Assembly: GCA_026003475.1 (NCBI GenBank)
Contig: BPHJ01000001.1
Location: forward strand, 382,545-446,544
Source of the DNA: Candidatus Kapaibacterium sp.
GTDB taxonomy: Bacteria; Bacteroidota; Ignavibacteria; Kapaibacteriales; NICIL-2
Length of the DNA stretch: 64,000 bases
Direction: 5' to 3'
Below, piece after piece: positions 14,201-60,459 of this stretch. Numbering within the stretch: the first letter of the stretch is position 1; each line of letters opens with the position of its first letter. The position numbers and the translations under genes are program-made. Below the pieces are notes generated by a model. The model made no database searches. It was given only the letters and a program-made list of their open reading frames with translations, and had not been told where the DNA came from.

Positions 14201-16302
14201 CGCTGTTCGAATAAGCAGAGCGTGTCGGTGTAGTCGAGGGCATCGGTGGGGCGGAATGCGAGCATGTTGGTAAGGGTTCGGGTCTGTTGCGGCGGGATTT
14301 GGATGTTCCGTTGAAGGAGGACAAATTCATCTCCACGCTTGAGGTAGAGCGATACTGTCAGCGCGTCGGTTGTGCTATTGTTGCGAAGCACGATGTCGCG
14401 GCGCGCTTCTTGACCGACAATGACGTTGCCACAGTCAATGCTTGCAGCGGCGAACTCGACGTCTTTGTCCAACCCTCGTGCGGTGAAGGGAATGGCGATC
14501 ACAAACTGGCAAGGCTCGCCGGGCAAGTGGGCATAGTACACGATCGAATCCCGCACTAATCCCGGTTGGAGTGGCCGAAAGCGGAAGTATTTCTCAAACT
14601 CACCAGCTTGACTGGATGGGCGGAGCGTGTACGGTGTTCGTGGAAGGCGAATGGCAACCAGTGTGCGTGGAAAAACCACGCTGTCAATGATGAGATTGCG
14701 GCTTGTGAGGTTATACCAATTCCACGCACTCGGCTGGGATAGATCCCCAGGGCACGTCGGTGGAAATTGAAATGAAGTGATCGGAGTGGTGCCATTTATC
14801 TGGCGGATTGCGAAGACTTGCTGCGTCCGTCCTGCCAGGGGGATAATGCCATTGCCCGGACAGCGATCGGTGGAGAGTACAAACAAGGTATCGAGGAACA
14901 CATTCGTCGTATCCTGTGCCAGGAAGCGAACTACGATATCGGCGCATTCGCCAGGTTGAAGGACGATGGGGAAACTCCGTCCCCCTGCCGGGAATGCTTG
15001 GAATACTGCTGGTCTGCGGGTTACCGCCCCGGTCAAGGTCAGGGGTTCTGCCATGCCAAGGGCGGCACTCTGGTTGCAAATGCGGATCGTGGTATCGAGG
15101 AAGGCGCGGCTGGGACATCGTGCAAAAAGCGTGTCGAAGGTGATGCGCGATGGTTGGTAGGTCAGCTCCGTTCGCCGAGTCAGTTGTATGTTCACTGTGT
15201 CGCTATAGCTGCAGCGATTGCCACCGACGATGCGCACAAATGCTTGGATAGTGCCCGTCAAGTACCCTCCGTAGGTGACGGTTGCCGTCATCGGTATCCC
15301 ACCAGGTGGAAGCGTCAGGACGCTGGGCACAACACGGAAAAACGACCGATCACGACCGCCGACGGAAAGGGAGACGGTGCTTCCGCATTCGGTTGTGTCA
15401 GCAACGGTAATGGTCCAGCTCCGTGTCGAGTCACAATCGAGCGGTTCGGCGATACTGTTTGGTGTGATGGTAACACTTCGGGGCAGAATACGCGCTGGTG
15501 ATGCTGGTCGGCAGGTGGCTCCACTGAACAGCCGCCCGTTGTTGCCGTTGCCGGAGGCGTCGCACAAGGGGGTCAAAAAATCGTTTTCGCGTTCATTGCA
15601 ACGGAAGTAGAGAACCAGCCCAGCTTCGTTGCCTTCCAGCGATCGAAAGCGATTGCAGGCAATCTCCGAGCGAGGGAGCGCTCGATTCCATATGCGAATT
15701 TCATCGAGCTGCCCGACAAACGCGCGGTTCTGCGCCGAATCGAAAAATCCATTGATGCTTCCAATCTTGAGAGCAGAGTTTGGGTTCTGTGGCTGCCGCA
15801 GCCGAGTGGCAGGGTATTGCGTATTGGTGGCTGAATCGCGCAGGATACCGTCCACGTAGAGCCGCACTATGCCAGCATCAAACGTTGCGGCAATATGGGT
15901 CCAGCGTCCGTAGTAGCTGCTGAACGGCACGCGCGCGATGGTGTTATCCTGCGCACCGCGGTTTTGGAGCCCGTTGACCTCGAAGGTAAGCTCGTCGGTT
16001 GGGGAAATAAACAGAATCCACACATCGTTGTCATCGGCATACGGTCCCCAAATGCCGGCGATGACAACGCGTCCGCCGCTTTGGCGGGTGGCATTTATCC
16101 ACATTTCCACCGTCAGTTGTGTGGAGATGCTCCGGAGCGATGCCGATGCTGCAACGTTGACGTAATGGTGGTTCTGTCCTGTTGCTACCGCACCGGTGTA
16201 CACTCGCCCAATGCAGGATTTGTTGCTGTCGCAGGAGCCAACGGCGAATGCCGATTCGAGCGCGATGCTACACCAAAGCAGACAAAGAAGGACAATGTGC
16301 AT
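11206..16302 (-). CDS. Large secreted LamG/Ig-like protein with T9SS sorting domain
   Basis: A 1,698-aa protein with a signal peptide (LLCLLWCSIALESAFA). A LamG/concanavalin-like domain occupies about residues 30-230 (RIWNRALPRSEIA is typical of its last strands). It is followed by a long series of ASH/Ig-like modules of about 100 residues, each with a paired CxxR/D-type strand. Two cohesin-like or carbohydrate-binding beta-sandwich segments lie near residues 1230-1380 and 1480-1620. The last 85 residues form a T9SS type A sorting domain (DPNPAHDRVWL, then LPSGMYRVVV). The protein should be exported by Sec, moved across the outer membrane by T9SS and anchored or released. Catalytic motifs are not seen; a structural or adhesive role is likely. 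Confidence 0.85.
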   Translation of the reverse strand: MHIVLLCLLWCSIALESAFAVGSCDSNKSCIGRVYTGAVATGQNHHYVNVAASASLRSISTQLTVEMWINATRQSGGRVVIAGIWGPYADDNDVWILFISPTDELTFEVNGLQNRGAQDNTIARVPFSSYYGRWTHIAATFDAGIVRLYVDGILRDSATNTQYPATRLRQPQNPNSALKIGSINGFFDSAQNRAFVGQLDEIRIWNRALPRSEIACNRFRSLEGNEAGLVLYFRCNERENDFLTPLCDASGNGNNGRLFSGATCRPASPARILPRSVTITPNSIAEPLDCDSTRSWTITVADTTECGSTVSLSVGGRDRSFFRVVPSVLTLPPGGIPMTATVTYGGYLTGTIQAFVRIVGGNRCSYSDTVNIQLTRRTELTYQPSRITFDTLFARCPSRAFLDTTIRICNQSAALGMAEPLTLTGAVTRRPAVFQAFPAGGRSFPIVLQPGECADIVVRFLAQDTTNVFLDTLFVLSTDRCPGNGIIPLAGRTQQVFAIRQINGTTPITSFQFPPTCPGDLSQPSAWNWYNLTSRNLIIDSVVFPRTLVAIRLPRTPYTLRPSSQAGEFEKYFRFRPLQPGLVRDSIVYYAHLPGEPCQFVIAIPFTARGLDKDVEFAAASIDCGNVIVGQEARRDIVLRNNSTTDALTVSLYLKRGDEFVLLQRNIQIPPQQTRTLTNMLAFRPTDALDYTDTLCLFEQRCYMTSCIPVHGRGIIERFRYDPPVLRIDRVLSCDSSMAIIEIINESSIEQVITNVRLDDSSGTLVAVDTLTGTRTVLPPTYRIPVGGRIRIAIRFVPPAGSTQDIAVVGFIRYRSASGEDWLVQLRANSVTPKLYLTPTTDYATLEVGEMRDDTLAIENISLLPVRVDRVVLPPGYVLQSTLPALPAVIAPRDSILAIVRFMPATVGTYNGMATVTSDSPCVNVQATGQLRGRAVLYRLDAPISIQNFSYVRPCECITREIPLANNSFVHPMTIDTLLIDSTGIPNATPQFFSFTSTYYERNGRQLPFNIPPQQTDTLRITFCPRSAADTNQVIASAQLIIAAHGVGWSEQYNVFLIGRRALTFRPLPTQFTFPVTLVDVDAAVNPSSPPVSRLTIPPLTWNPFQDTVQVDSIVFIPDERVFRYTLTNERNQPVALPYRLLPGTQSALNIRFDFRPRAPRTYRARAAIYYSKPCFDVDTTILLVGVGAAGFPYAMYMQFDSSGTPVDTFRVISCDTLHVPVYPSRALPRTSPQRSLIDLTCRFAYDTTKLRLVSVSTAYGTVAAVQEDALGAVVQLDSLLDVDSLAQMMVAHVVPRRQQRDTATIELRDMDFNTSEILRYDLSTTRGDQAVVFIDAAAITLTNPPSQGVLSFDSVRVLDCQQRQITIRNTGDVPVLIDSILRLPPTVRAIAFVPDRSLPRMPGEETTVTLEFCPRDFSDLLAWITIASTQPCWRDDSLQVSGIGYAPVFPLRITTDLNNPASPLARGGTLGDTITIPLLLDRDVAATYRGTTYWLQAFSFGVRINWNPTMLKFLGVTARLPNGALRDTFNFPSELRLGIEQVSDMRADTFALLHFRIAVPDTTRDVLRIEPTWGVQTDSLLFLNVQLLGSTTPILTGGKCGVTVARTGGSSSGLLAIDPNPAHDRVWLRIALDEFASPTVLLYSSSGNCLKRYDHVGTLAPGIHTLELPIEELPSGMYRVVVAAGMMHAQGVLVRVR

Positions 16303-41125: not shown

Positions 41126-41467
41126 TTATGACTGCGGTGACTGTCGTTGCTGCTCGATGATGCGGAGCTTTGTTTTGAGGGCGCTTCCTAACTCGATTCC
41201 ACGCGTATTAGCATAGTTGATCAGGGCAATGAGCACATCTGCCGCTTCGTCGGCATAGCGTTCGTGCTCGATGGTGAGACCTTTCCACTGCTTCTTTTCA
41301 AGGTTAGCAAGTTCGCCGACTTCCCCGCAGAGCTCGAGACAGAAAAATTCTGGCATCCGCTCTGGGAAATTCTCGCGCTGGTAAGCATCGAACCGAGACT
41401 GCAAACGGGGAAGCAATTCCTCACACGCGGTCAAGAGTGCTTCGAACGATGTTGCATACGGAGCCAT
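41126..41467 (-). CDS. MazG-like nucleotide pyrophosphohydrolase
   Basis: A 113-aa all-alpha NTP pyrophosphatase. The metal-binding glutamates are in ELCGEVGELAN and the second acidic block in ADEAADVLIAL. It probably hydrolyses non-canonical or excess nucleoside triphosphates. The ATG at 41467 is used because a GGGAGGT site lies 6 nt upstream; an upstream in-frame start would add an unrelated N-terminus. Confidence 0.88.
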   Translation of the reverse strand: MAPYATSFEALLTACEELLPRLQSRFDAYQRENFPERMPEFFCLELCGEVGELANLEKKQWKGLTIEHERYADEAADVLIALINYANTRGIELGSALKTKLRIIEQQRQSPQS

Positions 41468-41550
41468 AAGCACCTCCCAAAAGAATGTGGATAACACTTT
41501 GCACAGAGCGAAGATAGCACGCCAGAGGGGAAATTACGGGAAAGTACGTA

Positions 41551-41581
41551 TTGGCATCATGCCTTGTGAGGGCGAATTTTG
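41551..41581 (+). promoter_or_regulatory. Weak promoter candidate for the giant surface gene
   Basis: TTG (41551-41553), a 20-bp spacer and GAATTTTG (41574-41581) match the Bacteroidota pattern with one mismatch in the -7 box. The leader to ATG 41717 would be about 130 nt. Confidence 0.25.
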
Positions 41582-41716
41582 AATGCGACACGAAAACCGC
41601 ACGTAACCATCGAATTGGTGCTTCGATCGTGTGTCGGAATACTTCTGACGGCAACGATGCAACGAGCGGTTACCTTGCGCTTGACCAGAGAGTATCACTG
41701 TTCCTGAAAGTGTGCG

Positions 41717-44700
41717 ATGAACTCGATGCGCCCCGTTTGGTTGGTTGTAGCTGCGCTCGTGCTTGGTCTGCGGTCTGTAGCATGGAGTTGTCCGACAACA
41801 TTCACCTTGAGTGTACTGACACCGCAGCCCTGCCAGTTCGAGCAGATCGTCCTTGAACTTAGTGGGAACGAAACCAATGTCACCTACACGTTGCTGGCAA
41901 ATGGCTTGCCCTTGAGTGGTGTTAGTCAGAGCGTTGTCAATGGTCGTCGCCGCTTTACCGTTACGGGTGGACTGCAAAATGGGAGCTATACATTTTCCGT
42001 GCAAGCAACACTGGATACCTGTACGATTGTGATGGGGAATGTGACGCTAACGGTCTATACACCTGCTGTCCCGATACTTTCGCTATCGTCGCTCAACCAG
42101 ATTTTGTGCTATGGCGACCCGGGTACCATTGTTGTGGTCAATACTGATCCGCAAGCAAGCTACACTGTTCGCGATGGCAATACTGTGGTTGCTGGTCCGA
42201 CCCAGGGCAACGGGGGACAAATACAGTTTGTGCTCCCGGCATCGCTTTTTCCTCAAAGTGGGATGAAGACCTTTTCTGTGCGAGCTACTGCGCTCGGCAA
42301 CAGTCAGTGTTACGCTGAAACAGCCAATGGTCCGCTCGACGGCGCAACATTCATCGTGTATGGTTTGCCGCCAGCACCGCAGATCAGTGCACCGGAACCG
42401 TTTGCATGCAGTCCTGGCGGTGCAGCGCGAGTCCTTGTTCAAAATGCTGTCGCTGGCTACGTCTATCAAGTGCTCGATGGAAACACAGCAGTGTTTTCCG
42501 TGTTAGCGCAGTCCACTGGCCCGCTCGATATTACCAATATTCCCGTAACACCTGCATCGCCCGGACTTGGATTTGGAACGCGGTCAGTTACGGTGGTTGC
42601 TATCAATCCCAACAATAACAACTGTCGAATTCAGTCCACGTCGAGCGTCACGATCACGGTCGTAAGCCGACCTGCAACGCCACAGCTTGCAACGGGTACG
42701 AACACGCAAGTTTACTGCGATGCTCCGGGCGGTGTTACTGGATATGCGATCGTTGCCAATGGGGAAGCAGGCGTGACGTATGAAGTGCGGCGAGTCGGGA
42801 CAAATGCGCTCGTCGCAACTGCTATAGGGCAGGCTGGGGTGGTAACCATTCCAATAAGCGGCTTGACTGCAAGTGGGTCCCCCCATCAATTTCGTGTCTA
42901 TGCGATCAGCAATCAGACTGGCTGTGTCTCGGACCCAAGTGGAACGCTGACGATTGTTGTCAACTCGACGCCAACAGTAACTGCGTCCGTGCAAGCCGGT
43001 GGTTCATCCGCAACACTGTGCATGGGCTATACAAGCTCTGTTACACTCATCGGAAGCAGTAGCGGAGCCGTGAGCTTCCAATGGCTGCTCAATGGCAGTC
43101 CTATTGCCGGTGCAACGACGACCAGCTATACCGTTCCTACCGGCTTGAGTGTGGGGACCTACATGTATCAGCTCAGAGCAACAAATTCACTCGGCTGTAG
43201 CAGCACGTCTTCGGTTGTAACCGTTTCCGTGGTGGCAGCGCCAGCGGTAGCAGTTTCATCAAGCGGTTCGACGAACTTGTGCACAGGGTACTCAAGCGGT
43301 CCGACGTTGACATCATCAGTGAGCGGCTGCAGCAGTGCGACGTATCAATGGCAGCTCAACGGCAGCCCGATTAGTGGTGCGACGAGTTCGAGTTACACGG
43401 TGCCGGCAGGCCTGAGTGCTGGGACGTACGTGTACACGGTTGTTGTGACGTGTGGCAGTTGCAGTGCGACGTCCAGCAGCGTGACGGTGACCGTCAGCCC
43501 AGCGCCGGCGGTGACAATCAGCACAAGCGGTTCGACGAACTTGTGCACAGGGTACTCAAGCGGTCCGACGTTGACATCATCAGTGAGCGGCTGCAGCAGT
43601 GCGACGTATCAATGGCAGCTCAACGGCAGCCCGATTAGTGGTGCGACGAGTTCGAGTTACACAGTGCCGGCAGGCCTGAGTGCTGGGACGTACGTGTACA
43701 CGGTTGTTGTGACGTGTGGCAGTTGCAGTGCGACGTCGAACAGTGTGACGGTGACCGTCAGCCCAGCGCCGACGGTGACGATCAGCGCAAGCGGCTCGAC
43801 GAACTTGTGCACCGGGTACTCAAGCGGTCCGACGTTGACATCATCAGTGAGCGGCTGCAGCAGTGCGACGTATCAATGGCAGCTCAACGGCAGCCCGATT
43901 AGTGGTGCGACGAGTTCGAGTTACACGGTGCCGGCAGGCCTGAGTGCTGGGACGTACGTGTACACGGTTGTTGTGACGTGTGGCAGTTGCAGTGCGACGT
44001 CCAGCAGCGTGACGGTGACCGTCAGCCCAGCGCCGACGGTGACAATCAGCGCAAGCGGCTCGACGAACTTGTGCACAGGGTACTCAAGCGGTCCGACGTT
44101 GACATCATCAGTGAGCGGCTGCAGCAGTGCGACGTATCAATGGCAGCTCAACGGCAGCCCGATTAGTGGTGCGACGAGTTCGAGTTACACAGTGCCGGCA
44201 GGCCTGAGTGCTGGGACGTACGTGTACACGGTTGTTGTGACGTGTGGCAGTTGCAGTGCGACGTCGAACAGTGTGACGGTGACCGTCAGCCCAGCGCCGA
44301 CGGTGACAATCAGCGCGAGCGGCTCGACGAACTTGTGCACTGGGTATTCGAGCGGCCCGACGCTGACATCATCAGTGAGCGGTTGCAGCAGTGCGACGTA
44401 TCAATGGCAGCTCAACGGCAGCCCGATTAGTGGTGCGACAGGTTCGAGCTACACGGTGCCGGCAGGATTGAGCGCTGGGACGTACGTGTACACGGTGGTT
44501 GTGACGTGTGGCAGTTGCAGTGCGGCGTCGAACAGCGTGACGGTGACCGTCAGCCCAGCGCCGACGGTGACAATCAGCGCAAGCGGCTCGACGAACTTGT
44601 GCACCGGGTACTCAAGCGGTCCGACGTTGACATCATCAGTGAGCAGTTGCAGCAGTGCGACGTATCAATGGCAGCTCAACGGCAGCCCGATTAGTGGTGC

Positions 44701-47700
44701 GACGAGTTCGAGTTACACGGTGCCGGCAGGCCTGAGTGCTGGGACGTACGTGTACACGGTTGTTGTCACGTGTGGCAGTTGCAGTGCGACGTCGAATCCG
44801 ATTTCGATAACCGTGACGACGCCACCGACAGTCAGCGTCGGTGTATTTGGTTCGACTTCCTTGTGTGTGGGGTATTCAACGCCGCCACTTCTGGCGGTAA
44901 GTGTGAGCGGTTGTAGTAGCAGCGTATCGTATCAGTGGCGATTGAATGGTTTTGCGATTCCTGGTGCAACGACAGCGATGTACACAGTGCAGAGTGGATT
45001 GCCAGCGGGTACGTATTCGATTACTGTCGAGGTAAGCTGTAATGGTTGCAGCGTTACCTCTTCGGGAACAACGTTGAGTGTGGTGCCGCCACCGAATCCA
45101 ACTATTGCGCTGCAAAGTGGGCAGACGACTTTCTGCCAGGGTGCATCAACAACAGCAACACTTGCTGTATCGCAGACCTTCGCTCAGTATCAGTGGCAGC
45201 GGAATGGCTCGGATATTCCTGGTGCAACTAACCAAACGTACGTTGTGCCGAATTCACTCCCGGCTGGTATTCACATGTTCACTGTTCGTGTCACCGATGC
45301 AAGTGGCTGTAGCGGGACTTCAACAGCCGCAATGGCAATTACTGTTCTGCAATCCCCAACGCCGACAATCTCAATTCTTGCCGGCGCAGCAACCTGGTGC
45401 GTTGGGTCGCCAATCTCAACAGTGCTTACGACCCAAATGGGGTACTCGAGCTACCAATGGTACCTCAATGGAACCCCGATACCAGGTGCAACAAACTTTG
45501 TGTACAGTGTCCCAACCACGCTTGGCGTCGGTGTGTACGCCTACACGGTGGTTGCAACAAATAGTCTTGGCTGCACAGGGAGTTCGTCCCCACAGCTTAT
45601 TCTGGTGCTCCAGAGCCCAACAGTGACTGCAACATCTTCGATGAATCCGGCGACCTTCTGTGAAGGAGCAACAACGACGCCGGTTTTGAGTGCAACACCA
45701 GGAATGATGAACTACCAGTGGTACATGAATGGAGTCGCAATACCGGGTGCGAATCAGGCAACATACACGGTACCTTCATCGCTCACTGTTGGGACATACA
45801 GTTTTTATGTGGTCGGTTCGAGTTCGAATAGTTGCACAGGAACCTCGAACACTATCACGGTGACTGTCCAACAGGCGCCCTCCATCACCATAAGCTGCAT
45901 CAACAATGCAGCAACGACGCTGTGTAGTGGTTATTCGACAGCGCCCGTGCTCAGTGCGAGTGTGGGTAACTGCAATGGCACCATCAGCTACCAGTGGCTG
46001 CTCAATGGCTCGCCGATTGTGGGTGCGACAAATGCAACGTATCCAGTTCCATCCGGACTGAGTCCCGGTAGCTACGTGTATCGCTTGCAGGCGATGTGTG
46101 GCGTCTGTAGTAGTCTATCGAATACAATCACCGTTACCGTGCTGAGTGCACCGCAAGCGAGCATCAGTGCCAGTGGTCCGACCGCGCTGTGCAGTGGTTA
46201 TACAGCGGCGCCCCAGTTGACGTCGGCTGTGAGTGGCTGCAGTGGGACGACAACATACCAGTGGTATCACAATGGTGCTCCCGTTGTCGGTGCTACAAGC
46301 GCGAATTATCAAGTACCCCTGGGCTTGAATGTTGGCACTCATGTGTACACCCTCATTGCAACGTGTGGGTCTTGCTCCGGCACATCCAATAGCATTAGTA
46401 TCACCGTTGGATTATCACCGACTGTTACTGCATCGGTCAGCGGCGGTGGAACGTCGGCAACGGTTTGCACGAATGCATCGAGCTTTCCGGTGATCAGTGC
46501 GGTTGTATCGAATTGTACTAGCACGCCTGCCTATCAATGGCAGCTCAACGGTAGCCCAATTACTGGTGCAACGGATCCAAGCTATACCGTTCCTCCGACG
46601 CTGGGTGTGGGTACGTGGAATTTTACTGCTGTCGTTACCTGTGGTGGGTGTAGCACTACCTCCAATACAGTGGTTCTGACCGTTGCACAGTCGCCGACAG
46701 TTCAAATCAATACCACTGGTTCGACATCGCTTTGCACTGGTTATACACAAGGTCCACTCTTGACAGCATCAGCGAGCAACTGTTCTGGAACGCCAACATA
46801 TCAATGGTACCGTGATGGCCAACTCCTGACTGGCGCTACGAACGCTTCGCTACCAGTTCCCACAGGCCTTGCAAGCGGAACGTACAGCTATGCGGTTGCA
46901 GTAACCTGCGGCGGTTGCACAGCGACGGCATCGGTCACGGTAACCGTCAATCCGTCGGCCACAGTGTCCATCTCAACCTACCAGCCAACCCAACTCTGCA
47001 CCGGCTATAGTGCTGGTCCAGTGCTTCAATCAACAGTGATGTGCCTCGGCTCGCCATCATATCAATGGTTGCTCAATGGTAACCCGATTAGTGGTGCCAC
47101 GGGGTTGACCTATTCTGTGCCTACTGGATTGGCAGTGGGAAGCTATACCTATGCGTTACAAATTACCTGCGGTTCCTGCACAACGTTATCGAATGCAATC
47201 GTTGTCACTGTGGCGCAATCGCCGACGGTAATGATCCTTAGCTCAGGTTCCACAATGCTGTGCACGGGTTATGCAAGTGCACCGACGCTGACAGCATCAG
47301 TAACCAACTGTAGTGGTACGCCACAGTACCAGTGGTATCTCAACAATTCTCCCATCACTGGTGCAACAACTGCAACCTATACCATTCCGTTGGGGCTTAG
47401 CCCTGGCTCATACTCGTATGCAGTTGTTGTTACATGCGGTTCGTGCAGCACGAGCTCGACGCCTACCACCGTTGTTGTTTCTCAAGCTCCGAGCGTGAGT
47501 ATTTCTGCCGTCGGTCCAACGACGCTGTGCAGCGGATATACCAGTGTGCCTGTTCTTGTGGCATCTGTGTCATCGTGTACAAGCACCCCGCAGTATCAAT
47601 GGTACCTTGGCAGCAGTCCTATCAATGGTGCTACCGCCAGCAATTTCACATTGCCAACAGGTCTGAGCACTGGCACATATAACTACAGCGTGGCTGTTAC

Positions 47701-50700
47701 CTGCGGATCCTGCACGACAACATCTGGAGCGTTGGCTGTAACGGTTACCCAATCGCCCTCGGTGACAATTGCAGCATCTGGCACAACGCAGCTCTGCACG
47801 GGTTATTCGAGCGGTCCGATCCTGTCGTCGAGTGTCAGTAATTGCTCCGGAGCGGCAACCTACCAATGGTATCTCAACAATGCAGCAATTGTCGGAGCAA
47901 CAAACTCATCCTATGCAGTTCCTACGGGACTTTCTGCTGGGTTGTACACCTACACCTTGATGGTGACCTGTGCCAGTGGATGCAGCGGCTACTCGAATAT
48001 GGTTCACGTTCTGATTCAGAAAACGCCAACTGCTACGGCAACCGTAAGTGGGGCGAGCCTGCTATGCACTGGATACACCACGTCACCAATGCTGACGGTT
48101 AGCGTGGGCCATTGCACGACAACTCCCCAGTATCAATGGTACATTGACGGCAGCCCCATTACTGGAGCAACAACATCAACGTACACACTCCCTACGGGTC
48201 TTAGTGCAGGCACCTACACATACACTGTTAGCGTTACATGTGGAATTTGCACAGGGACCTCGAACCCAGTTGCTGTCACTGTTGCCCAATCCCCCAGCGT
48301 GTCCATTGCAACATCTGATGCAACTTCATTGTGCACCGGCTACTCAAGCGGCCCGACGCTGACATCATCGGTGAGCAATTGCAGCGGGACGGCGCAGTAC
48401 CAGTGGTACCAGAACAGCGTTGCAATCGTTGGCGCGACGAGTTCGAGTTACACGGTGCCGGCAGGCCTGAGTGCTGGGACGTACGTGTACACGCTCGTTG
48501 TCACGTGTGGCAGTTGCAGTGCGACGTCGAATAGCGTGACGGTGACGGTCAGCCAGACGCCGGCGGTGACAATCAGCACAAGCGGCTCGACGAACTTGTG
48601 CACCGGCTACTCAAGCGGTCCGACGCTGACATCATCGGTGAGCAATTGCAGCGGGACGGCGCAGTACCAGTGGTACCAGAACAGCGTTGCAATCGTTGGC
48701 GCGACGAGTTCGGGTTACACGGTGCCGGCAGGCCTGAGTGCTGGGACGTACGTGTACACGGTGGTTGTGACGTGTGGCGGATGCAGTGCGACCTCAAACA
48801 GTGTGACGGTGACGGTAAGCCCATCGCCGAGCGTGACGATCAATGCCAATGGTTCGACGAGCCTGTGCGTTGGGTATTCGAGTGGGCCGACGCTGACCTC
48901 CTCGGTGAGCAATTGCAGCGGGACGGCGCAGTACCAGTGGTACCAGAACAGCGTTGCAATCGTTGGCGCGACAGGTTCGAGCTACACGGTGCCAGCAGGC
49001 CTGAGTGCTGGGACGTACACGTACACGCTGGTTGTCACATGCGGCAGTTGCAGCGCGACGTCCAGCAGCGTGACGGTGACGGTGAGCCAGACGCCGACGG
49101 TGACAATCAGCGCGAGCGGCTCGACGAACTTGTGCACCGGGTATTCGAGCGGCCCGACGTTGACCTCCTCGGTGAGCAATTGCAGCGGGATGGCGCAGTA
49201 CCAGTGGTACCAGAACAGCGTTGCAATCGTTGGCGCGACGAGTTCGAGTTACACGGTGCCAGCAGGCTTGAGTGCTGGGACGTACGTGTACACGCTCGTT
49301 GTCACGTGTGGCAGTTGCAGTGCGACATCGAATAGCGTGACGGTGACGGTGAGCCAGACGCCGACGGTGACAATCAGCGCGAGCGGCTCGACGAACTTGT
49401 GCACCGGGTATTCGAGCGGCCCGACGCTGACCTCCTCGGTGAGCAATTGCAGCGGGACGGCGCAGTACCAGTGGTACCAGAACAGCGTTGCAATCGTTGG
49501 CGCGACAGGTTCGAGCTACACGGTGCCAGCAGGATTGAGTGCAGGGACGTACACGTACACGCTTGTTGTCACGTGCGGCAGTTGCAGTGCGACGTCGAAC
49601 AGTGTGACGGTGACCGTCAGCCCATCGCCGACGGTGACAATCAGCGCGAGTGGCTCGACGAACTTGTGCACCGGGTATTCGAGCGGCCCGACGCTGACCT
49701 CATCGGTGAGCAATTGCAGCGGGACGGCGCAGTACCAGTGGTACCAGAACAGTGTTGCAATCGTTGGCGCGACAGGTTCGAGCTACACGGTGCCGGCAGG
49801 ATTGAGTGCGGGGACGTACACGTACACGCTCGTTGTCACGTGCGGCAGTTGCAGCGCTACCTCAAACAGCGTGACGGTGACGGTGAGCCCATCGCCGACG
49901 GTGACAGATCAGCGCGAGCGGCTCGACGAACTTGTGCACCGGGTATTCGAGCGGACCGACGCTGACCTCCTCGGTGAGCAATTGCAGCGGGACGGCGCAG
50001 TACCAGTGGTACCAGAACAGCGTTGCAATCGTTGGCGCGACGAGTTCGAGCTACACGGTGCCGGCAGGCTTGAGTGCGGGGACGTACACGTACACGCTGG
50101 TTGTCACGTGTGGCAGTTGCAGTGCGACGTCGAACAGCGTGACGGTGACGGTCAGCCCATCGCCGAGCGTGACGATCAGCGCCAATGGTTCGACGAGCCT
50201 GTGCGTTGGGTATTCGAGTGGTCCGACGCTGACCTCGAGCGTGGTGGGATGCACGAGCACGGCGACGTATCAGTGGCACGTCAACGGGAACCCGATCAGT
50301 GGTGCGACTGGAGCGACGTACGTTGTGCCGGGCGGCTTGAGTGCGGGGACGTACACGTACACGCTGGTTGTCACGTGCGGCAGTTGCAGTGCGACGTCCA
50401 GCAGCGTGACGGTGACCGTCAGCCCATCGCCGAGCGTGACGATCAGCGCCAATGGTTCGACGAGCCTGTGCGTTGGGTATTCGAGCGGTCCGACGCTGAC
50501 CTCACTCGGTGAGCAATGCAGCGGCACGGCGACGTACCAGTGGCACGTCAACGGGAACCCGATCAGTGGTGCGACTGGAGCGACGTACGTTGTGCCGGGC
50601 GGCTTGAGTGCTGGGACGTACACGTACACGCTGGTTGTGACGTGCGGCAGTTGCAGTGCGACGTCGAATAGCGTGACGGTGACGGTGAGCCCATCGCCGA

Positions 50701-53700
50701 GCGTGACGATCAGCGCCAATGGTTCGACGAGCCTGTGCGTTGGGTATTCGAGCGGTCCGACGCTGACCTCGCGTCGGTGAGCAATTGCAGCGGGCACGGC
50801 GCACGTACCAGTGGCACGTCAACGGAACCCGATCACGTGGCGCGACGGTTCGAGCTACACGGTGCCGAGCAGGCTTGAGTGCGGGGACGTACACGTACAC
50901 GCTTGTTGTCACGTGTGGCAGTTGCAGTGCGACGTCCAACAGCGTGACGGTGACGGTGAGCCCATCGCCGAGCGTGACGATCAGCGCCAATGGTTCGACG
51001 AGCCTGTGCGTTGGGTATTCGAGCGGTCCGACGCTGACCTCCTCGGTGAGCAATTGCAGCGGGACGGCGCAGTACCAGTGGCACTCGAACGGCGAGCCCG
51101 ATCAGTGGCGCGACGAGTTCGAGCTACACGGTGCCGGCAGGCTTGAGTGCGGGGACGTACGTGTACACGGTGGTTGTGACGTGCGGCAGTTGCAGTGCGA
51201 CGTCAAACAGCGTGACGGTGACCGTCAGCCCATCGCCGAGCGTGACGATCAGCGCCAATGGTTCGACGAGCCTGTGCGTTGGGTATTCGAGCGGTCCGAC
51301 GCTGACCTCCTCGGTGAGCAATTGCAGCGGGACGGCGCAGTACCAGTGGACGCAGAACAGCCGATTCAGTGGCGCGACGAGTTCGAGCTACACGGTGCCG
51401 GCAGGCTTGAGTGCGGGGACGTACGTGTACACGCTGGTTGTGACGTGTGGCAGTTGCAGTGCGACATCGAATAGCGTGACGGTGACGGTCAGCCCATCGC
51501 CGAGCGTGACGATCAGCGCAATGGTTCGACGAGCCTGTGCGTTGGGTATTCGAGTGGTCCGACGCTGACCTCGAGCGTGGTGGATGCACGAGCACGGCGA
51601 CGTATCAGTGGCACGTCAACGGCAGCCCGATCAGTGGTGCGACGAGTTCGAGCTACACGGTGCCGAGCAGGCTTGAGTGCGGGGACGTACGTGTACACGG
51701 TGGTTGTGACGTGCGGCAGTTGCAGTGCGACGTCGAACAGCGTGACGGTGACGGTGAGCCCATCGCCGAGCGTGACGATCAGCGCGAGCGGTTCGACGAG
51801 CCTGTGCGTTGGGTATTCGAGCGGCCGACGCTGACCTCCTCGGTGAGCAATGCAGCGGCACGGCGAGTACCAGTGGCACTCAACGGGCACCCGATCAGTG
51901 GTGCGACGGAGTTCGACGCTACACGGTGCCGAGCAGGCTTGAGTGCTGGGACGTACGTGTACACGCTGGTTGTGACGTGCGGCAGTTGCAGTGCGACGTC
52001 CAACAGCGTGACGGTGACGGTGAGCCCAGCGCCGAGCGTGACGATCAAGCCAATCGGTTCGACGAGCCTGTGCGTTGGGTATTCGAGCGGTCCGACGCTG
52101 ACCTCCTCGGTGAGCAATTGCAGCGGGATGGCGCAGTACCAGTGGTACCAGAACAGCGTTGCAATCGTTGGCGCGACGAGTTCGAGCTACACGGTGCCGG
52201 CAGGCCTGAGTGCTGGGACGTACGCGTACACGGTGGTTGTCACGTGCGGCAGTTGCAGTGCGACCTCAAACAGCGTGACGGTGACGGTGAGTCCCTCGCC
52301 GAGCGTGACGATCAATGCCAATGGTTCGACGAGCCTGTGCGTTGGGTATTCGAGCGGCCCGACGCTGACCTCATCGGTGAGCAGATGCACGGGCACGGCG
52401 ACGTACCAGTGGCACGTCAACGGCAGCCCGATCAGTGGTGCGACGAGTTCGAGCTACACGGTGCCAGCAGGCTTGAGTGCTGGGACGTACGTGTACACGG
52501 TGGTTGTGACGTGCGGCAGTTGCAGTGCGACCTCAAACAGCGTGACGGTGACGGTGAGCCCATCGCCGACGGTGACGATCAGCACAAGCGGCTCGACGAA
52601 CTTGTGCACCGGGTATTCGAGCGGTCCGACGCTGACCTCCTCGGTGAGCAATTGCAGCGGGATGGCGCAGTACCAGTGGTACCAGAACAGCGTTGCAATC
52701 GTTGGCGCGACGAGTTCGAGCTACACGGTGCCGGCAGGCCTGAGTGCGGGGACGTACACGTACACGCTGGTTGTCACGTGTGGCAGTTGCAGTGCGACGT
52801 CGAATAGCGTGACGGTGACGGTCAGCCCATCGCCGACGGTGACGATCAGCGCCAATGGTTCGACGAGCCTGTGCGTTGGGTATTCGAGTGGTCCGACGCT
52901 GACCTCGAGCGTGGTGGGATGCACGAGCACGGCGACGTATCAGTGGCACGTCAACGGGAACCCGATCAGTGGTGCGACTGGAGCGACGTACGTTGTGCCG
53001 GGCGGCTTGAGTGCGGGGACGTACACGTACACGCTGGTTGTCACGTGTGGCAGTTGCAGTGCGACGTCCAGCAGCGTGACGGTGACCGTGAGCCCATCGC
53101 CGAGCGTGACGATCAATGCCAATGGTTCGACGAGCCTGTGCGTTGGGTATTCGAGTGGGCCGACGCTGACCTCGAGCGTGGTGGGATGCACGAGCACGGC
53201 GACGTATCAGTGGCACGTCAACGGGAACCCGATCAGCGGTGCGACGGGAGCGACGTACGTTGTGCCGAGCGGCTTGAGTGCGGGGACGTACACGTACACG
53301 CTTGTTGTCACGTGCGGCAGTTGCAGTGCGACGTCCAGCAGCGTGACGGTGACCGTCAGCCCATCGCCGAGCGTGACGATCAGCGCCAATGGTTCGACGA
53401 GCCTGTGCGTTGGGTATACGAGTGGTCCGACGCTGACCTCGAGCGTGGTGGGATGCACGAGCACGGCGACGTACCAGTGGCACGTCAACGGCAACCCGAT
53501 CAGTGGTGCGACTGGAGCGACGTACGTTGTGCCGAGCGGCTTGAGTGCGGGGACGTACACGTACACGCTTGTTGTCACGTGCGGCAGTTGCAGTGCGACG
53601 TCAACAGCGTGACGGTGACCGTCAGCCCATCGCCGAGCGTGACGATCAGCGCAAGTGGTTCGACGAACCTGTGCGTTGGGTATTCGAGTGGTCCGACGCT

Positions 53701-56700
53701 GACCTCGAGCGTGGTGGGATGCACGAGCACGGCGACGTACCAGTGGCACGTCAACGGGAACCCGATCAGTGGTGCAACTGGAGCGACGTACGTTGTGCCG
53801 AGCGGCTTGAGTGCGGGGACGTACACGTACACGCTGGTTGTCACGTGCGGCAGTTGCAGTGCGACGTCCAGCAGCGTGACGGTGACCGTCAGCCCATCGC
53901 CGAGCGTGACGATCAATGCCAATGGTTCGACGAGCCTGTGCGTTGGGTATACGAGTGGGCCAGTGCTGTCGTCGAGCGTGAGCGGGTGCAATGCACCGAC
54001 GTACCAGTGGCACGTCAACGGGAACCCGATCAGTGGTGCAACTGGAGCGACGTACGTTGTGCCGAGCGGCTTGAGTGCAGGGACGTACGCGTACACGCTT
54101 GTTGTCACGTGTGGCAGTTGCAGTGCGACGTCCAGCAGCGTGACGGTGACCGTCAGCCCATCGCCGAGTGTGACGATCAATGCCAATGGTTCGACGAGCC
54201 TGTGCGTTGGGTATTCGAGTGGGCCGACGCTGACCTCGAGCGTGGTGGGATGCACGAGCACGGCGACGTATCAGTGGCACGTCAACGGGAACCCGATCAG
54301 TGGTGCGACTGGAGCGACGTACGTTGTGCCGAGCGGCTTGAGTGCAGGGACGTACGTGTACACGCTTGTTGTCACGTGTGGCAGTTGCAGTGCGACGTCC
54401 AACAGCGTGACGGTGACCGTCAGCCCATCGCCGAGGTGACGATCAATGCCAATGGTTCGACGAGCCTGTGCGTTGGGTATTCGAGCGGCCCGACGCTGAC
54501 CTCCTCGGTGAGCAATTGCAGCGGGATGGCGCAGTACCAGTGGTACCAGAACAGCGTTGCAATCGTTGGCGCGACGAGTTCGAGTTACACGGTGCCGAGC
54601 GGCCTGAGTGCAGGGACGTACACGTACACGCTGGTTGTCACGTGCGGCAGTTGCAGTGCGACGTCGAATAGCGTGACGGTGACCGTCAGCCCATCGCCGA
54701 GCGGTGACGATCAGCGCGAGCGGCTCGACGAACTTGTGCACCGGCTACTCGAGTGGTCCGACGCTGACCTCGAGCGTGGTGGGATGCACGAGCACGGCGA
54801 CGTATCAGTGGCACGTCAACGGGAATCCGATCAGTGGTGCAACTGGAGCGACGTACGTTGTGCCGAGCGGCTTGAGTGCGGGGACGTACACGTACACGCT
54901 GGTTGTCACGTGCGGCAGTTGCAGTGCGACGTCCAGCAGCGTGACGGTGACCGTCAGCCCCTCGCCGAGTGTGACGATCAATGCCAATGGTTCGACGAGC
55001 CTGTGCGTTGGGTATTCGAGTGGGCCGACGCTGACCTCGAGCGTGGTGGGATGCACGAGCACGGCGACGTACCAGTGGCACGTCAACGGGAACCCGATCA
55101 GCGGTGCAACTGGAGCGACGTACGTAGTGCCGAGCGGCTTGAGTGCAGGGACGTACACGTACACGCTTGTTGTCACGTGCGGCAGTTGCAGTGCGACGTC
55201 CAGCAGCGTGACGGTGACCGTCAGCCCATCGCCGAGCGTGACGATCAGCGCCAATGGTTCGACGAGCCTGTGCGTTGGGTATACGAGTGGTCCGACGCTG
55301 ACCTCGAGCGTGGTGGGATGCACGAGCACGGCGACGTATCAGTGGCACGTCAACGGGAACCCGATCAGCGGTGCGACTGGAGCGACGTACGTAGTGCCGG
55401 GCGGCTTGAGTGCGGGGACGTACACGTACACGCTTGTTGTCACGTGCGGCAGTTGCAGTGCGACATCGAATAGCGTGACGGTGACGGTGAGCCCCTCGCC
55501 GAGCGTGACGATCAGCGCCAATGGTTCGACGAGCCTGTGCGTTGGGTATTCGAGCGGGCCGACGCTGACCTCCTCGGTGAGCAATTGCAGCGGGACGGCG
55601 CAGTACCAGTGGCGATTGAATGGCAGCCCGATTAGTGGCGCGACGAGTTCGAGTTACACGGTGCCGGCAGGCCTGAGTGCTGGGACGTACACGTACACGC
55701 TGGTTGTCACGTGCGGCAGTTGCAGTGCTACCTCAAGCAGCGTGACGGTGACGGTGAGCCAGACCCCAAGCGTGACAATCAGTTGTTCCTCGAATCAGAA
55801 TTCAACTTCATTTACACTGACGAGTACCGCTCTTGGTATCAGCTCTGGCAATTACGGAACGAGTTATGCTGTTGGAGGAAGTAGCGGTATTGTACTAACA
55901 GCGCGGAGCAGCGTTGATCCAACTCAACCAACGAACCCGACTGCTTCTGGACAGACTGGCGTCATCTTCATTGGTAGTGATGGCGTTGGGGTGAAGAATT
56001 CAGGTGGTGGTGGCTCGCAGGGTATTTCGGGCGGTGGCGGTGATCAAGATGAGGAAGTCAAGATCACCTTTGCTGGAGGTGCTGTTCCAGCAGGTACGAT
56101 TGTGTTGGGTATCAACAAGTTGAGTTTCAGCAGTGATACGCCGGTGCTGTTCATTCACAAGACAGACGGTTCTTACGTCACAGTACAGGAATCTGAACTC
56201 CAGAGTGTGATTACATGGACTGCATCAGATCGTGGAGAGATTGACTTTAGCGATCTCAGCTCAATCAGCTCGAGTGCGATGGTTGATTTCATCGTGTTGC
56301 GTGAGACTGCAGGCCACATTTTCGTCTACAGCATTAGCTTCGGTGGTGGATGCTCGACGATTGCACTGTGTAGCGGTTACGCAAGTGGACCCACGCTGAC
56401 ATCCTCAGTGAGCGGGTGTAGCGGGAGTGTGTCGTACCAATGGATGAAGAATGGCAGCCCCATCAGTGGGGCAACGGGCTCGACGTACACAGTACCAACA
56501 GGGCTGAGTACGGGGAATCACACGTACACACTGGTTGTGACCTGTGGAGGATGCAGTGTGACATCAAACAGTATCACGGTGGTCGTTAGTGCTGCGCCGA
56601 CGGTGACAATCAGCACGAGTGGCTCGACGAACTTGTGCACAGGGTATTCGAGCGGCCCGACGCTGACCTCCTCGGTGAGCAATTGCAGCGGGACGGCGCA

Positions 56701-59101
56701 GTACCAGTGGCGATTGAATGGCAGCCCGATTAGTGGCGCGACGAGTTCGAGTTACACGGTGCCGGCAGGCTTGAGTGCTGGGACGTACACGTACACGCTG
56801 GTTGTGACGTGCGGCAGTTGCAGTGCGACGTCAAACAGTGTGACAGTGACGGTGAACCCAACGCCGTCGATCACTCTGACCGGTGGCACAACAATATGCG
56901 CTGGTGGCTCAGCAACACTAACGTTCACGCTTACCAGCGGTAACACAACGAACTGGAGCCTAACCTACCAAGCAACGCCAACAAGCGGTTCATCACAACA
57001 GTTTACGGTTGGTAGTATCAACGGCTCGACGTACACGGTAAACGTCTCGCCTTCGGTGACAACGACGTATTCGGTGGTTTCGGTCACCGCAGGAGGGTGC
57101 ACAATCACTCCATCCAACGTTTCGACAACGGTAACGGTTAGCAACATCGCTGTTAGTGCATCTGTGCAAGGAGGTGGAACCAGTGTCGCGATATGTTCAA
57201 CTGCAACAAATCGCCCAACACTGGTGGCGTCTGTTACCGGTTGTTCAACGCCAAGCTACCAATGGCGGCGCAACGGAACGAACATTAGTGGCGCTACACA
57301 ATCAACCTACACCATTCCAACAGGATTGGCTGCAGGTACGTACCAATACAGCGTATATGTCACCTGTGGTGGGTGCGCTGCGACTTCCAACAACGTAACC
57401 GTTACAGTTACCTCGATTGGGACAGTGACCATCGCCATTCAAGGCACTTCCTCGACGAATGTGACCTACTGCGAAAACCAGCAGGGCGGTACGCTCTACG
57501 TGGTCCAACCGACCAGTGGCATTGTATCGTATCAATGGTACGTTGATGGATCACCGATTAGCGGTGCTACCAACTCGACCTATGTGATCCCAACCTCTCA
57601 GACGGGAACAAGAAACTACACCGTCAAAGTCACCGATGCGGGTGGATGCGAGAAATTCTCGAACACAATCTGTGTGACCGTAGTCTCGACGCCGACGGTG
57701 ACAATCAGCACATCGAACACAAGTGTTTGTCCTGGCTCACAAGTGGTGGTGTACTTCTCGTTTAGCGGTTGCGGCCCGTGGCACCTGACCTACAAGATCA
57801 ACAACGGCTCCAATGTCACCGTTCAGACATCGAGCAATCCGTACATGCTCACGTACACAATCACACAGACGACAACGTTCACCGTGATCTCCGTACAGAA
57901 CTGTAGCGGCTGTGCCGGAACGATTGTGGGCAATTCAAGCATTACCGTGACGCCTTACGGTATCCCAACTTCATACTTTGTTATGGGCTTTACCGGTGAT
58001 ACCGTCACGACAAACTCAAATGGTTACGTGCTCGAATGGCCGAACTATGCAGGTAATGGCTCGAACTATCCTGATGGCACCGTCAACGCGAGTTCCAATA
58101 CCTATCGCCCCAAGCACTACCCGAATTATTCAGCACTCAACGGGCATGGTGCGATCTATTGGGGTGGGAACGACAAACCAGTTGAAGTGCAGGTCAACAC
58201 CGGCAGTGGTATCAGTGGTGGTACGCAAAAGACACTCTTCATTGTGTACCGGCCTACCTCGTCGAGTTTGACCAATGACAGGATGGTCATCTACAAGCAA
58301 GGCGACGAGAACCACGGCTTTGCGATCTACCTGATCAATCGGCAGGTGTACTACGGAGTATGGAATAATCAAAACTGCAGCGGAAGCTGTACCAACAAGT
58401 GGTCGGTCTTCCAGAGCACTGGCTTCACCGTGCAGCCCGGCACGAACTACATCTTCCAGTTCGTGTACAATGGCAATGCATCATCGTCGAACCGGCTGCG
58501 CTTCTCGATCAATGGGAACGTGTACACTCCCTCCGGTACGCCGGGCACGAGCATGTCATACTCTGGTGATGCTGTCAGCATCGGTGGAAAGGTTGGCAAC
58601 ACTCGCTTCCATGATGCTGCATCGGTCAACGAAAACAATCAGTATTTGTGCAATAACACCAAGATCGCAGAGGTTCTGCTCTACAATACTGCTGATGCAA
58701 CGATACGCGACCAAGTTTGGTGTGTGCTCAAGTACAAGTATGGTTTCACCAGCCTTGGAAACAACCCGATCGGTACGCTTTCCAAAGATGGCTCAGACGA
58801 TGAACCGATCGCAGGACAAGCACCACCGACCGAGGAAACCATCCTGCTCAGCGAGATAGCCCCCGATCCTGCCGATCATCGTGCGGCAGCAGTGCTCCAG
58901 GTCCAACAGCAACAGTACGTTCGTGCGACAATCATTGGGCTTGATGGGCAGCGCCACGCCACGGTTTATGATGGGTATGTTCTCCGCGGTGAACGTCGCG
59001 AGCTGGCGCTCGATCTGGCCACATTGCCATCGGGGGTGTACTTCCTCGTCGTCGAGGGTGAGTACTTTGTCCGATCGCGTCGCTTCGTTGTTCAGCACTG
59101 A
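41717..59101 (+). CDS. Giant Ig-like-repeat surface protein with T9SS sorting domain (frame broken in repeats)
   Basis: One gene of 17.4 kb, about 5,794 codons. It has a signal peptide (WLVVAALVLGLRSVAWS), then several diverged Ig-like modules. Tandem 88-89-residue modules follow, of the type often found beside CHU_C domains (LCTGYSSGP, YQWxxNGSPISGAT, YTVPAGLSAGTY, VVTCGSCSAT). Next come a Gly-rich unique domain (55790-56355), more Ig-like modules, a LamG/lectin-like domain (about 57960-58790) and a C-terminal T9SS sorting domain (LPSGVYFLVV). The reading frame starts and ends in the same phase. About twenty indels between 49906 and 54703 interrupt it, and they sum to zero. The likely role is a giant adhesin or surface filament, comparable in scale to SprB of gliding Bacteroidota; homology to SprB is not shown. 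Confidence 0.8.
43262..44800 (+). repeat. Array of six near-identical 264-bp units
   Basis: Unit starts (AGCGG-TCGACGAAC) fall at 43262, 43526, 43790, 44054, 44318 and 44582, exactly 264 bp apart. The units differ at few bases and encode 88-residue Ig-like modules of one type (SGCSSATYQWQLNGSPISG). The sixth unit diverges near its end. Confidence 0.95.
44801..48313 (+). repeat. About thirteen diverged Ig-like modules
   Basis: Same protein-level architecture and cysteine pattern as the flanking arrays, but with low DNA identity between units. It separates the two homogenised arrays and shows what the modules look like without recent copying. Confidence 0.8.
48314..55786 (+). repeat. Array of 28 near-identical 267-bp units
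   Basis: Units of 89 codons recur at a 267-bp step from about 48314 to 55786. Two subfamilies alternate irregularly: one with SNCSGTAQYQWYQNSVAIVG and one with VGCTSTATYQWHVNGNPISG. One unit (about 53930-54180) is one codon shorter. Small indels are concentrated between 49906 and 54703. Confidence 0.93.
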
Positions 59102-59129
59102 GCGGAAATCTGGTTGTCCAGTGCAGTGG

Positions 59130-59159
59130 CGGGGAGTGTGCATTTTTGCACGCTCCCCG
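59130..59159 (+). terminator. Intrinsic terminator after the giant gene
   Basis: CGGGGAGTGTGCA (59130-59142) pairs with TGCACGCTCCCCG (59147-59159), 13 pairs with one G-U, around a TTTT loop, followed by TTTGCTTTT. It begins 28 nt after the stop codon. Confidence 0.8.
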
Positions 59160-59214
59160 TTTGCTTTTGCGATGGGGAATGCCCGTACCATGTCACACGT
59201 GCAACAGCAGACCC

Positions 59215-60459
59215 ATGTACACCGGTGATTCGCCCAACGATGAACGGGATTTTGTGCTCACCTCTTCGCGGCAAGGAGCAGTGCGATTTGCCCTCTATGG
59301 TGTAGTAGTGGGTATTGTGGGATTGGCAATTGCGAGCGCTGTATTACGTGTGCCGCGCCAGGTCGAGCTCTCGTGCGTGCTCAAAAGCAATAGCAACGAA
59401 CGTATCTTCCGATTTGCCGAGGATGTATTCGTCGAGCGATACTACGTGCGGGTGGGAGATCGCGTTCGAGCGGGCATGCCGCTGGTACGCATTAGTTCAC
59501 CGCAGATTGCAGCATTGGTGATGGAGTATGCTCTGGCACGCTTGCAGGAGGAAGTGTTCGAAACGACTGAGCTTCCTGTGCATGCAAAAACACAAGCCGA
59601 ACTTCGCTTACAGCAGCAGAAAGTGCTCCGCCAATTGGAGCGTACTCAGCAAGCTCGTCGCTTTGCGCTGGCAACGCAACAAGCGGAAATCCGCAAGCTC
59701 GAACTTGCTGCCCGCAATGCGCGCGAGCAGCTCGAGCAGCTCCGGAAGCTCCGTGCAAGCGGCTATGTTCCCGAAACAGAACTCCAGCAAGCAGAACTTC
59801 AAAAAGCCAGCGCCGATGAAGCACTCCAGCGGGCGCGGGAGCAGTACCGCCGGGACATCGCATCGCTTGAATCGCAGTTGCAAGAACTATCGCTCGATCG
59901 AAGCATTGCCGGTCAATCGGAAGAAAAACTCACACTCGAAATGCGCAATCGCCGTGCGCAGCTCCGCGCTGCACGGGAAACTGCCTACCAACGATTGCGT
60001 GCGCTCTATGGCGAATTCGAACTCGATAGCGGTGCAGTCGTTCTCAAAGCACCCAGCGATGGGCTTGTTGTAACCTACATCAGCGATGCCGAACGGCAAG
60101 TACCCGCAGGAGCAATCCTCCTGAAATTGAGCCAGCCAGCGACGGCATTCTACGCTCACGCGCAAGTGCCCCCCAAAGACATCGGTTCGATTCGCGCTGG
60201 CCTACCGGTTGTTGTCAAACTCTCGTCCTTCCCGCCGTTGCGATGGGGAGTTCTGCGTGGCCATGTTCGCTCGGTGAGCCTTTCTCCTGGAGAGCATCGG
60301 AGCTATGTGCTCGAAGCCACACTGAACGCTGATTCCACGTTCCATGGCGTCCTACAAGAAGGGATGGATGGCACGCTCACGGTGCTGGTCGAGGAACGAC
60401 CTGTGGCAGCGTATATCCTGGAAACCTTCCTTCGCCCATTCGAGGAATTTATTCGCTGA
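59215..60459 (+). CDS. HlyD-type membrane-fusion/adaptor protein
   Basis: A 414-aa periplasmic adaptor. It has one N-terminal transmembrane helix (FALYGVVVGIVGLAIASAVL), a lipoyl-like half (VRVGDRVRAGMPLVRISSP) and a long coiled coil (about residues 110-275, Gln/Glu/Arg-rich). The second lipoyl half (APSDGLVVTYISDAERQVPAG) and a beta-barrel domain (RAGLPVVVKLSSFPPLRWGVL) follow. Such proteins link an inner-membrane transporter to an outer-membrane channel, but no ABC, RND or TolC-like gene is adjacent. The ATG at 59215 is chosen as the first Met close to the membrane helix. It ends 11 bp inside the convergent TerC-like gene. Confidence 0.85.
   Translation: MYTGDSPNDERDFVLTSSRQGAVRFALYGVVVGIVGLAIASAVLRVPRQVELSCVLKSNSNERIFRFAEDVFVERYYVRVGDRVRAGMPLVRISSPQIAALVMEYALARLQEEVFETTELPVHAKTQAELRLQQQKVLRQLERTQQARRFALATQQAEIRKLELAARNAREQLEQLRKLRASGYVPETELQQAELQKASADEALQRAREQYRRDIASLESQLQELSLDRSIAGQSEEKLTLEMRNRRAQLRAARETAYQRLRALYGEFELDSGAVVLKAPSDGLVVTYISDAERQVPAGAILLKLSQPATAFYAHAQVPPKDIGSIRAGLPVVVKLSSFPPLRWGVLRGHVRSVSLSPGEHRSYVLEATLNADSTFHGVLQEGMDGTLTVLVEERPVAAYILETFLRPFEEFIR

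Follow-up and report, generated by a model that had tools for sequence, protein, structure and literature searches.

The 64,000-nucleotide window analyzed here (contig BPHJ01000001.1 of Candidatus Kapaibacterium sp., positions 382,545 to 446,544) contains a giant, highly repetitive gene on the + strand, whose features are collected in Table 1. The interval occupied by the gene comprises 17,385 bases, equivalent to 5,795 codons by division by three, a figure that is not a measured protein length. About 52 immunoglobulin (Ig)-like modules of ~89 amino acids each, encoded from 42944 to 57652, make up most of the product; they lie between an N-terminus resembling a Sec signal peptide and a tail resembling those of the type IX secretion system (T9SS). 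The evidence below makes it likely that this is a single gene, belonging to one genus of the Kapabacteria (Chlorobiota) and encoding a secreted giant rod, probably a static adhesin or fiber.

Table 1. Features of the giant gene and its downstream neighbor (positions within the window).
Feature	Position	Strand	Basis
Whole gene as inferred; frame-broken in the assembly	41717..59101	+	Single open reading frame in orthologue; local-frame pN/pS
Sec signal-peptide-like N-terminus, MNSMRPVWLVVAALVLGLRSVAWS-C	41717..41788	+	Sequence, by eye; orthologue N-terminus of the same kind
Diverged Ig-like N-terminal region, 7.6% charged; presumed distal end	41789..42943	+	Sequence; comparison with orthologue
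First YQW-type Ig module, orthologous 1:1	42944..43210	+	Module model; reciprocal comparison
Array 1: six near-identical 264-bp modules, 0/527 residues charged	43214..44794	+	Repeat finding; module model
Thirteen diverged Ig modules, 12 of which pair reciprocally with orthologue modules as best hits, order unchanged	44795..48262	+	
Array 2: ~28 near-identical 267-bp modules	48263..55735	+	Repeat finding; module model
Stretch holding every frame change (~10 net)	49865..54703	+	Module model; comparison with intact units
Insert of 207 residues, normal charge	55736..56356	+	Absent from orthologue and relatives
Roughly five more Ig modules, some of them degenerate	56357..57652	+	Module model
Final Ig-like segment plus a domain of ConA/LamG-like jelly-roll type	57653..58780	+	Conserved in relatives; low-confidence structural model
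Putative T9SS type A sorting domain (PDP/PNP...LPSGVY)	58880..59098	+	Weak TIGR04183 match
HlyD-type membrane fusion protein, directly downstream	59146..60459	+	Pfam; neighborhoods in relatives

A hidden Markov model built from intact modules of the gene gave 58 matches, all on the + strand between 41858 and 57652. Forty-seven of these were full-length, the others being fragments at frame breaks or weak modules near the N- or C-terminus. Tandem Repeats Finder independently delimited two arrays, at 43260-44796 (264 bp × 5.8, 95% match) and 48347-55782 (267 bp × 27.9, 88% match), so that the roughly fifty Ig-like modules proposed in the initial annotation of this DNA are well founded. The same annotation took the repeat to differ from SprB repeats and suggested that it may mark a new adhesin family. 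A new repeat type is not supported: the modules score well above the Pfam cut-offs for PF22352 (K319L-like PKD; 137.7 bits, cut-off 27) and for the CHU_C-associated Ig profile with which it had suggested comparing them (PF19081, Ig_7; 61-68 bits, cut-off 27.3). Pfam matches of the arrays to HydF_tetramer, CXXC_Zn-b_euk, X25 and similar families were set aside as low-complexity repeat artefacts, and NCBIfam matches to ZirU, Rv0910 toxin and HydF were dropped, every score being under the curated cut-off. Searches with the 207-residue insert in 60 related genomes found no homologue; none of its Pfam scores passed the cut-off, and its PDB matches did not exceed chance.

Structure prediction, also suggested in the initial annotation, returned a confident Ig-type beta sandwich for a two-module segment (predicted local distance difference test score, pLDDT, 94.4). 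The best Foldseek match of this module pair was fragment 6 of GhpA (E 6.5e-7, TMq 0.60, 24% identity) and the third was SiiE (2yn5/2yn3). VIA-align found many Ig domains at Z ~10, so the fold indicates no more than Ig. At the sequence level, 44795-48262 also matches GhpA (E 1.1e-38). Both matches would fit a subunit of a grappling hook or stalk, as GhpA is in Aureispira, forming an oligomeric fiber that catches other cells, and that hook protein, too, leaves the cell through a T9SS (PMC11205867). The likeness is nonetheless one between common Ig beads, searches with the N- and C-terminal regions gave no GhpA match, and the GhpA stretch compared is visibly charged, so that we consider a hook function quite unlikely.

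The most unusual property of the modules is their composition. Each contains ~4 Cys, and ~36% of residues are Ser or Thr, but Asp, Glu, Lys and Arg are entirely missing from array 1 and nearly so elsewhere: samples of array 2 are 0.2-0.4% charged, the diverged modules 1.1%, the orthologue's modules 1.0%, and all full modules together 0.6%. The median for genes of the window is 21%, and an 8,400-codon giant from the same order never falls under 4.8% in 500 residues. Because the diverged modules remain uncharged at only ~50-60% identity to one another, low charge appears to have been maintained as they diverged. A separate 4,925-codon intact giant with a T9SS tail and many Ig-like modules (L067; G000:C1:1839950-1854728, about L067:2451-17228, - strand) has an 800-residue stretch that is 1.25% charged.

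Over the repeat region, cleavage by trypsin would give peptides that reach 243-614 residues. Standard proteomics would therefore miss most of the protein, through its near absence of charge and hence of tryptic sites. The suggestion that a lack of peptides would refute the gene is thus misleading; since the arrays are without nearly all Lys and Arg, absence from tryptic proteomes carries no weight against it. A more speculative possibility, to which we give a low probability, is that an uncharged, disulfide-stapled Ig fiber with thousands of residues <1% charged and ~4 Cys per bead, kept uncharged between species as well, is a bacterial stalk of a physically new kind. It is similarly conceivable, as a tentative idea, that such a fiber is O-glycosylated on its Ser/Thr residues or self-associates, with its length changing by unit duplication.

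The initial annotation described a single gene of about 5,800 residues; one gene is what we also favor, but it is not one readable open reading frame (ORF) as assembled. The frame of the start codon at 41717 (frame 2) contains 24 stops along the interval, and the ORF listing is broken, with main ORFs at 41717-50512 (2,931 amino acids, the final ~200 out of frame) and 54704-59101 (1,465 amino acids); a single-ORF reading was accordingly rejected. Traced with the module model, the frame is unchanged from 41717 to 49864 and again from 54701 to the end, with ~10 changes between, in the order 2-0-1-2-1/0-0-2-1-2 across 49864-54703. Comparison with intact units showed that the changes are mostly single-base insertions or deletions at scattered, non-recurring sites, densest at 50500-52050. 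They are confined to array 2, the most repetitive part of the gene; the ~8 kb before and the ~4.4 kb after have none. Programmed frameshifting was rejected on inspection, the indels being of both signs, scattered and without a common motif.

Selection appears to have acted on the frames so traced. The pN/pS ratio was 0.19-0.32 in the local frames of the unshifted arrays and >1.2 in nearly all other frames; in the local frame of the shifted stretch 52002-53603 it was 0.49, so constraint persists there. The intact orthologue described below and these low local-frame ratios make one gene with consensus errors in its array, left uncorrected by long-read assembly, the most likely explanation. Consensus error is invoked because reads cannot be placed uniquely in the array, and sequence errors within repeats are known to persist through short-read polishing (PMC8812927). 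Four further giant genes of this genome run uninterrupted for 2,397-4,925 codons, and the two Ig-rich ones among them (L067 and L068) have diverged repeats. The true length of the protein is uncertain because the assembled repeats are damaged.

Were the breaks real, the gene would be a decaying pseudogene or a length or phase variant, and its only product would be truncated, with ~2,700 residues in frame, a further ~200 in the wrong frame and no sorting tail. The sequence as given does break near codon 2,717, and a genome of the same genus (G005) has lost the gene, which is therefore dispensable. Such a reading seems unlikely, however, given breaks that sit in the near-identical array alone, low local-frame pN/pS, and a final 4.4 kb that is open in the original frame. 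The arrays might also be divided among several separate genes, as the several assembled ORFs would allow; with a single ORF in the orthologue, and with neither a T9SS tail nor a start resembling a signal peptide seen in any of the three translated frames from 42 to 58.8 kb, we regard this as extremely improbable.

The intact orthologue (L061; JAOAGY010000021.1) comes from the Chlorobiota metagenome-assembled genome (MAG) SKW43 (G003) and is one ORF of ~2,941 amino acids. It starts with the signal-peptide-like MNWLRLVVLVVGTVGLVLTTAHS-C and, like the gene in the window, continues with the N-terminal region, a module series, the C-terminal domain and the tail, followed downstream by HlyD and TerC genes. 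Identity is 82% in the N-terminal region (residues 22-528) and 83% in the C-terminal region, and modules 8-19 of the window gene pair with orthologue modules 4-15 as reciprocal best hits, in the same order. The orthologue differs in having its frame intact, no expanded arrays (21 full modules at the same cut-off) and no 207-residue insert. Because arrays 1 and 2 match just one or two orthologue modules, they are either lineage-specific expansions or were collapsed in the short-read orthologue.

Relatives of the C-terminal 399 residues occur in 47 of 61 related genomes, many through the sorting tail alone, and the closest (73-90% identity) are in the same genus. The Candidatus Kapaibacterium MAG SKYG14 resembles the window in its C-terminal region (81%) and its HlyD and TerC genes, but its contig stops inside the gene. 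Contigs of relatives break or collapse at the giant gene (G001, G002, G004 and G007). In L064 (G002:C36), no more than two or three modules separate the N-terminal from the C-terminal region, which looks like a collapse of the repeat; a second contig of G002 carries the C-terminal region again. Published genomes can thus misstate giant repeat genes both ways: short reads collapse or break them, and long reads can leave frame errors.

The immediate neighborhood consists of the HlyD-type gene, 45 bp downstream on the same strand, then TerC on the opposite strand; on the upstream side, a short ORF on the reverse strand, which by eye resembles MazG, lies between the giant gene and one for a glycosyltransferase-TPR protein. 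The complete genome G005 retains the flanks at the corresponding locus (L085; G005:C1:1698000-1712000), where ~230 bp replace the equivalent of ~41414-60372. The last 28 HlyD codons remain there as a relic, and most of the glycosyltransferase-TPR gene is missing too, leaving a truncated remnant. The HlyD relic and the truncated glycosyltransferase-TPR gene point to loss of the giant gene in G005, not gain elsewhere.

The HlyD gene is retained in G001-G004, and G005 has lost it along with the giant gene, which could suggest type I export after the manner of SiiE, whose Ig rod was also among the fold matches. SiiE is secreted by a type I system. This route is highly improbable here: the N-terminus is signal-peptide-like and the tail is of T9SS kind, none of the neighbors examined with Pfam is an ABC exporter or TolC, and the homologue in G007 has no adjoining HlyD gene.

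For T9SS export, support comes from the genome, which was searched family by family. It encodes SprA (669 bits) and PorV (108 bits), both over cut-off, and 49 other T9SS tails. Of 13 aligned sequences, 11 match TIGR04183 at E≤0.01, the match being stronger in relatives; with PF18962 the number is 10 at E≤1, the best E being 1.1e-12. Other proteins with T9SS-like tails were seen in passing. A 1,698-residue protein in the window (11206-16302, - strand) has a LamG domain, ASH/HYDIN-like Ig repeats and a C-terminus (DPNPAHD...LPSGMYRVVV) resembling another type A tail. Two giant paralogues (L069 and L070 in G000; 2,601 and 2,397 codons), nearly identical over long stretches, lie at two genome sites and both have T9SS tails.

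Size, a T9SS route and repeats might also be taken to indicate a mobile gliding adhesin like SprB, and RemA, a type A lectin adhesin, can join in gliding (PMC12618676). No SprB repeats (PF13573) were found in the genome, although the same model matched 19 of 99 phylum genomes used as a positive control. SprB requires a type B tail and SprF (PMC9143113); the genome has no match to the type B model TIGR04131, a result of limited weight as the model matched no control genome. GldJ is unmatched in the genome, though GldM was missed likewise. In F. johnsoniae, moreover, proteins with type A C-terminal domains are statically anchored or released (PMC12618676), and a gliding role seems very unlikely.

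These observations can be assembled into a working scheme for a static surface protein. Sec would export the protein, SprA as the type IX translocon and PorV as the carrier protein would move it out, and the type A C-terminal domain would presumably anchor it. The ~fifty Ig beads would form a long stalk, nearly uncharged and Ser/Thr-rich. Its outer end would consist of the 400 conserved residues of the N-terminus, and the jelly-roll domain would lie at the base, at the cell surface. The near-identical arrays would have arisen in this lineage by unit duplication. A role as static surface adhesin or fiber seems most probable. If so, giant Ig rods exported by a T9SS, as made by other Bacteroidota, are also built by a Chlorobiota lineage from hot springs that has not been cultured; a search of the literature on Kapabacteria surface proteins found nothing relevant.

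The unity of the gene in an orthologue, the repeat anatomy, the Ig fold of the module, the presence of SprA and PorV and the depletion of charge are direct results, whereas secretion, anchoring, orientation, adhesion and the reading of the frame breaks as errors are inferred. Several points weigh against this scheme. The T9SS sorting domain named in the initial annotation is recognizable as a type A-like tail, but its own TIGR04183 score of 20.6 bits is below the cut-off of 23. The signal peptide it named was recognized by eye only, in this gene and in the orthologue. GldM, of the T9SS motor, is unmatched by TIGR03517 in the genome. As for the proposed lectin-like domain, the C-terminal domain (57.9-58.8 kb) looks jelly-roll-like in alignment with relatives, but the window's own copy has no Pfam match and its AlphaFold model reaches a pLDDT of only 61. 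Foldseek matches of that poor model to clostridial neurotoxin binding domains and Gas6/AXL complexes, at a TM of only 0.26-0.37, were judged generic to jelly rolls, and no toxin relation is claimed.

Among known systems, SiiE of Salmonella is alike as a giant Ig-domain rod; it differs in Ca binding (from the PDB title) and type I secretion, neither of which is indicated here. SprB of F. johnsoniae (669 kDa; PMC9143113) is likewise a giant, repetitive T9SS surface protein. A likeness beyond size is not supported: SprB has SprB repeats, ends in a type B tail and relies on SprF as its carrier, in contrast to Ig modules and a type A-like tail in this protein. RemA, also of F. johnsoniae, is similar by its description, combining a type A C-terminal domain with a lectin-type domain (PMC12618676). 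GhpA of Aureispira sp. CCB-QB1 (5,898 amino acids; PDB 9flp-9fly, 9g8b) shares giant size, Ig-like beads and T9SS secretion (PMC11205867), but it is a heptamer, identity in Foldseek is 21-26%, and the ends are unrelated by searches. Set beside these systems, the protein is a large but ordinary T9SS surface protein built of Ig repeats, distinguished above all by its low charge.

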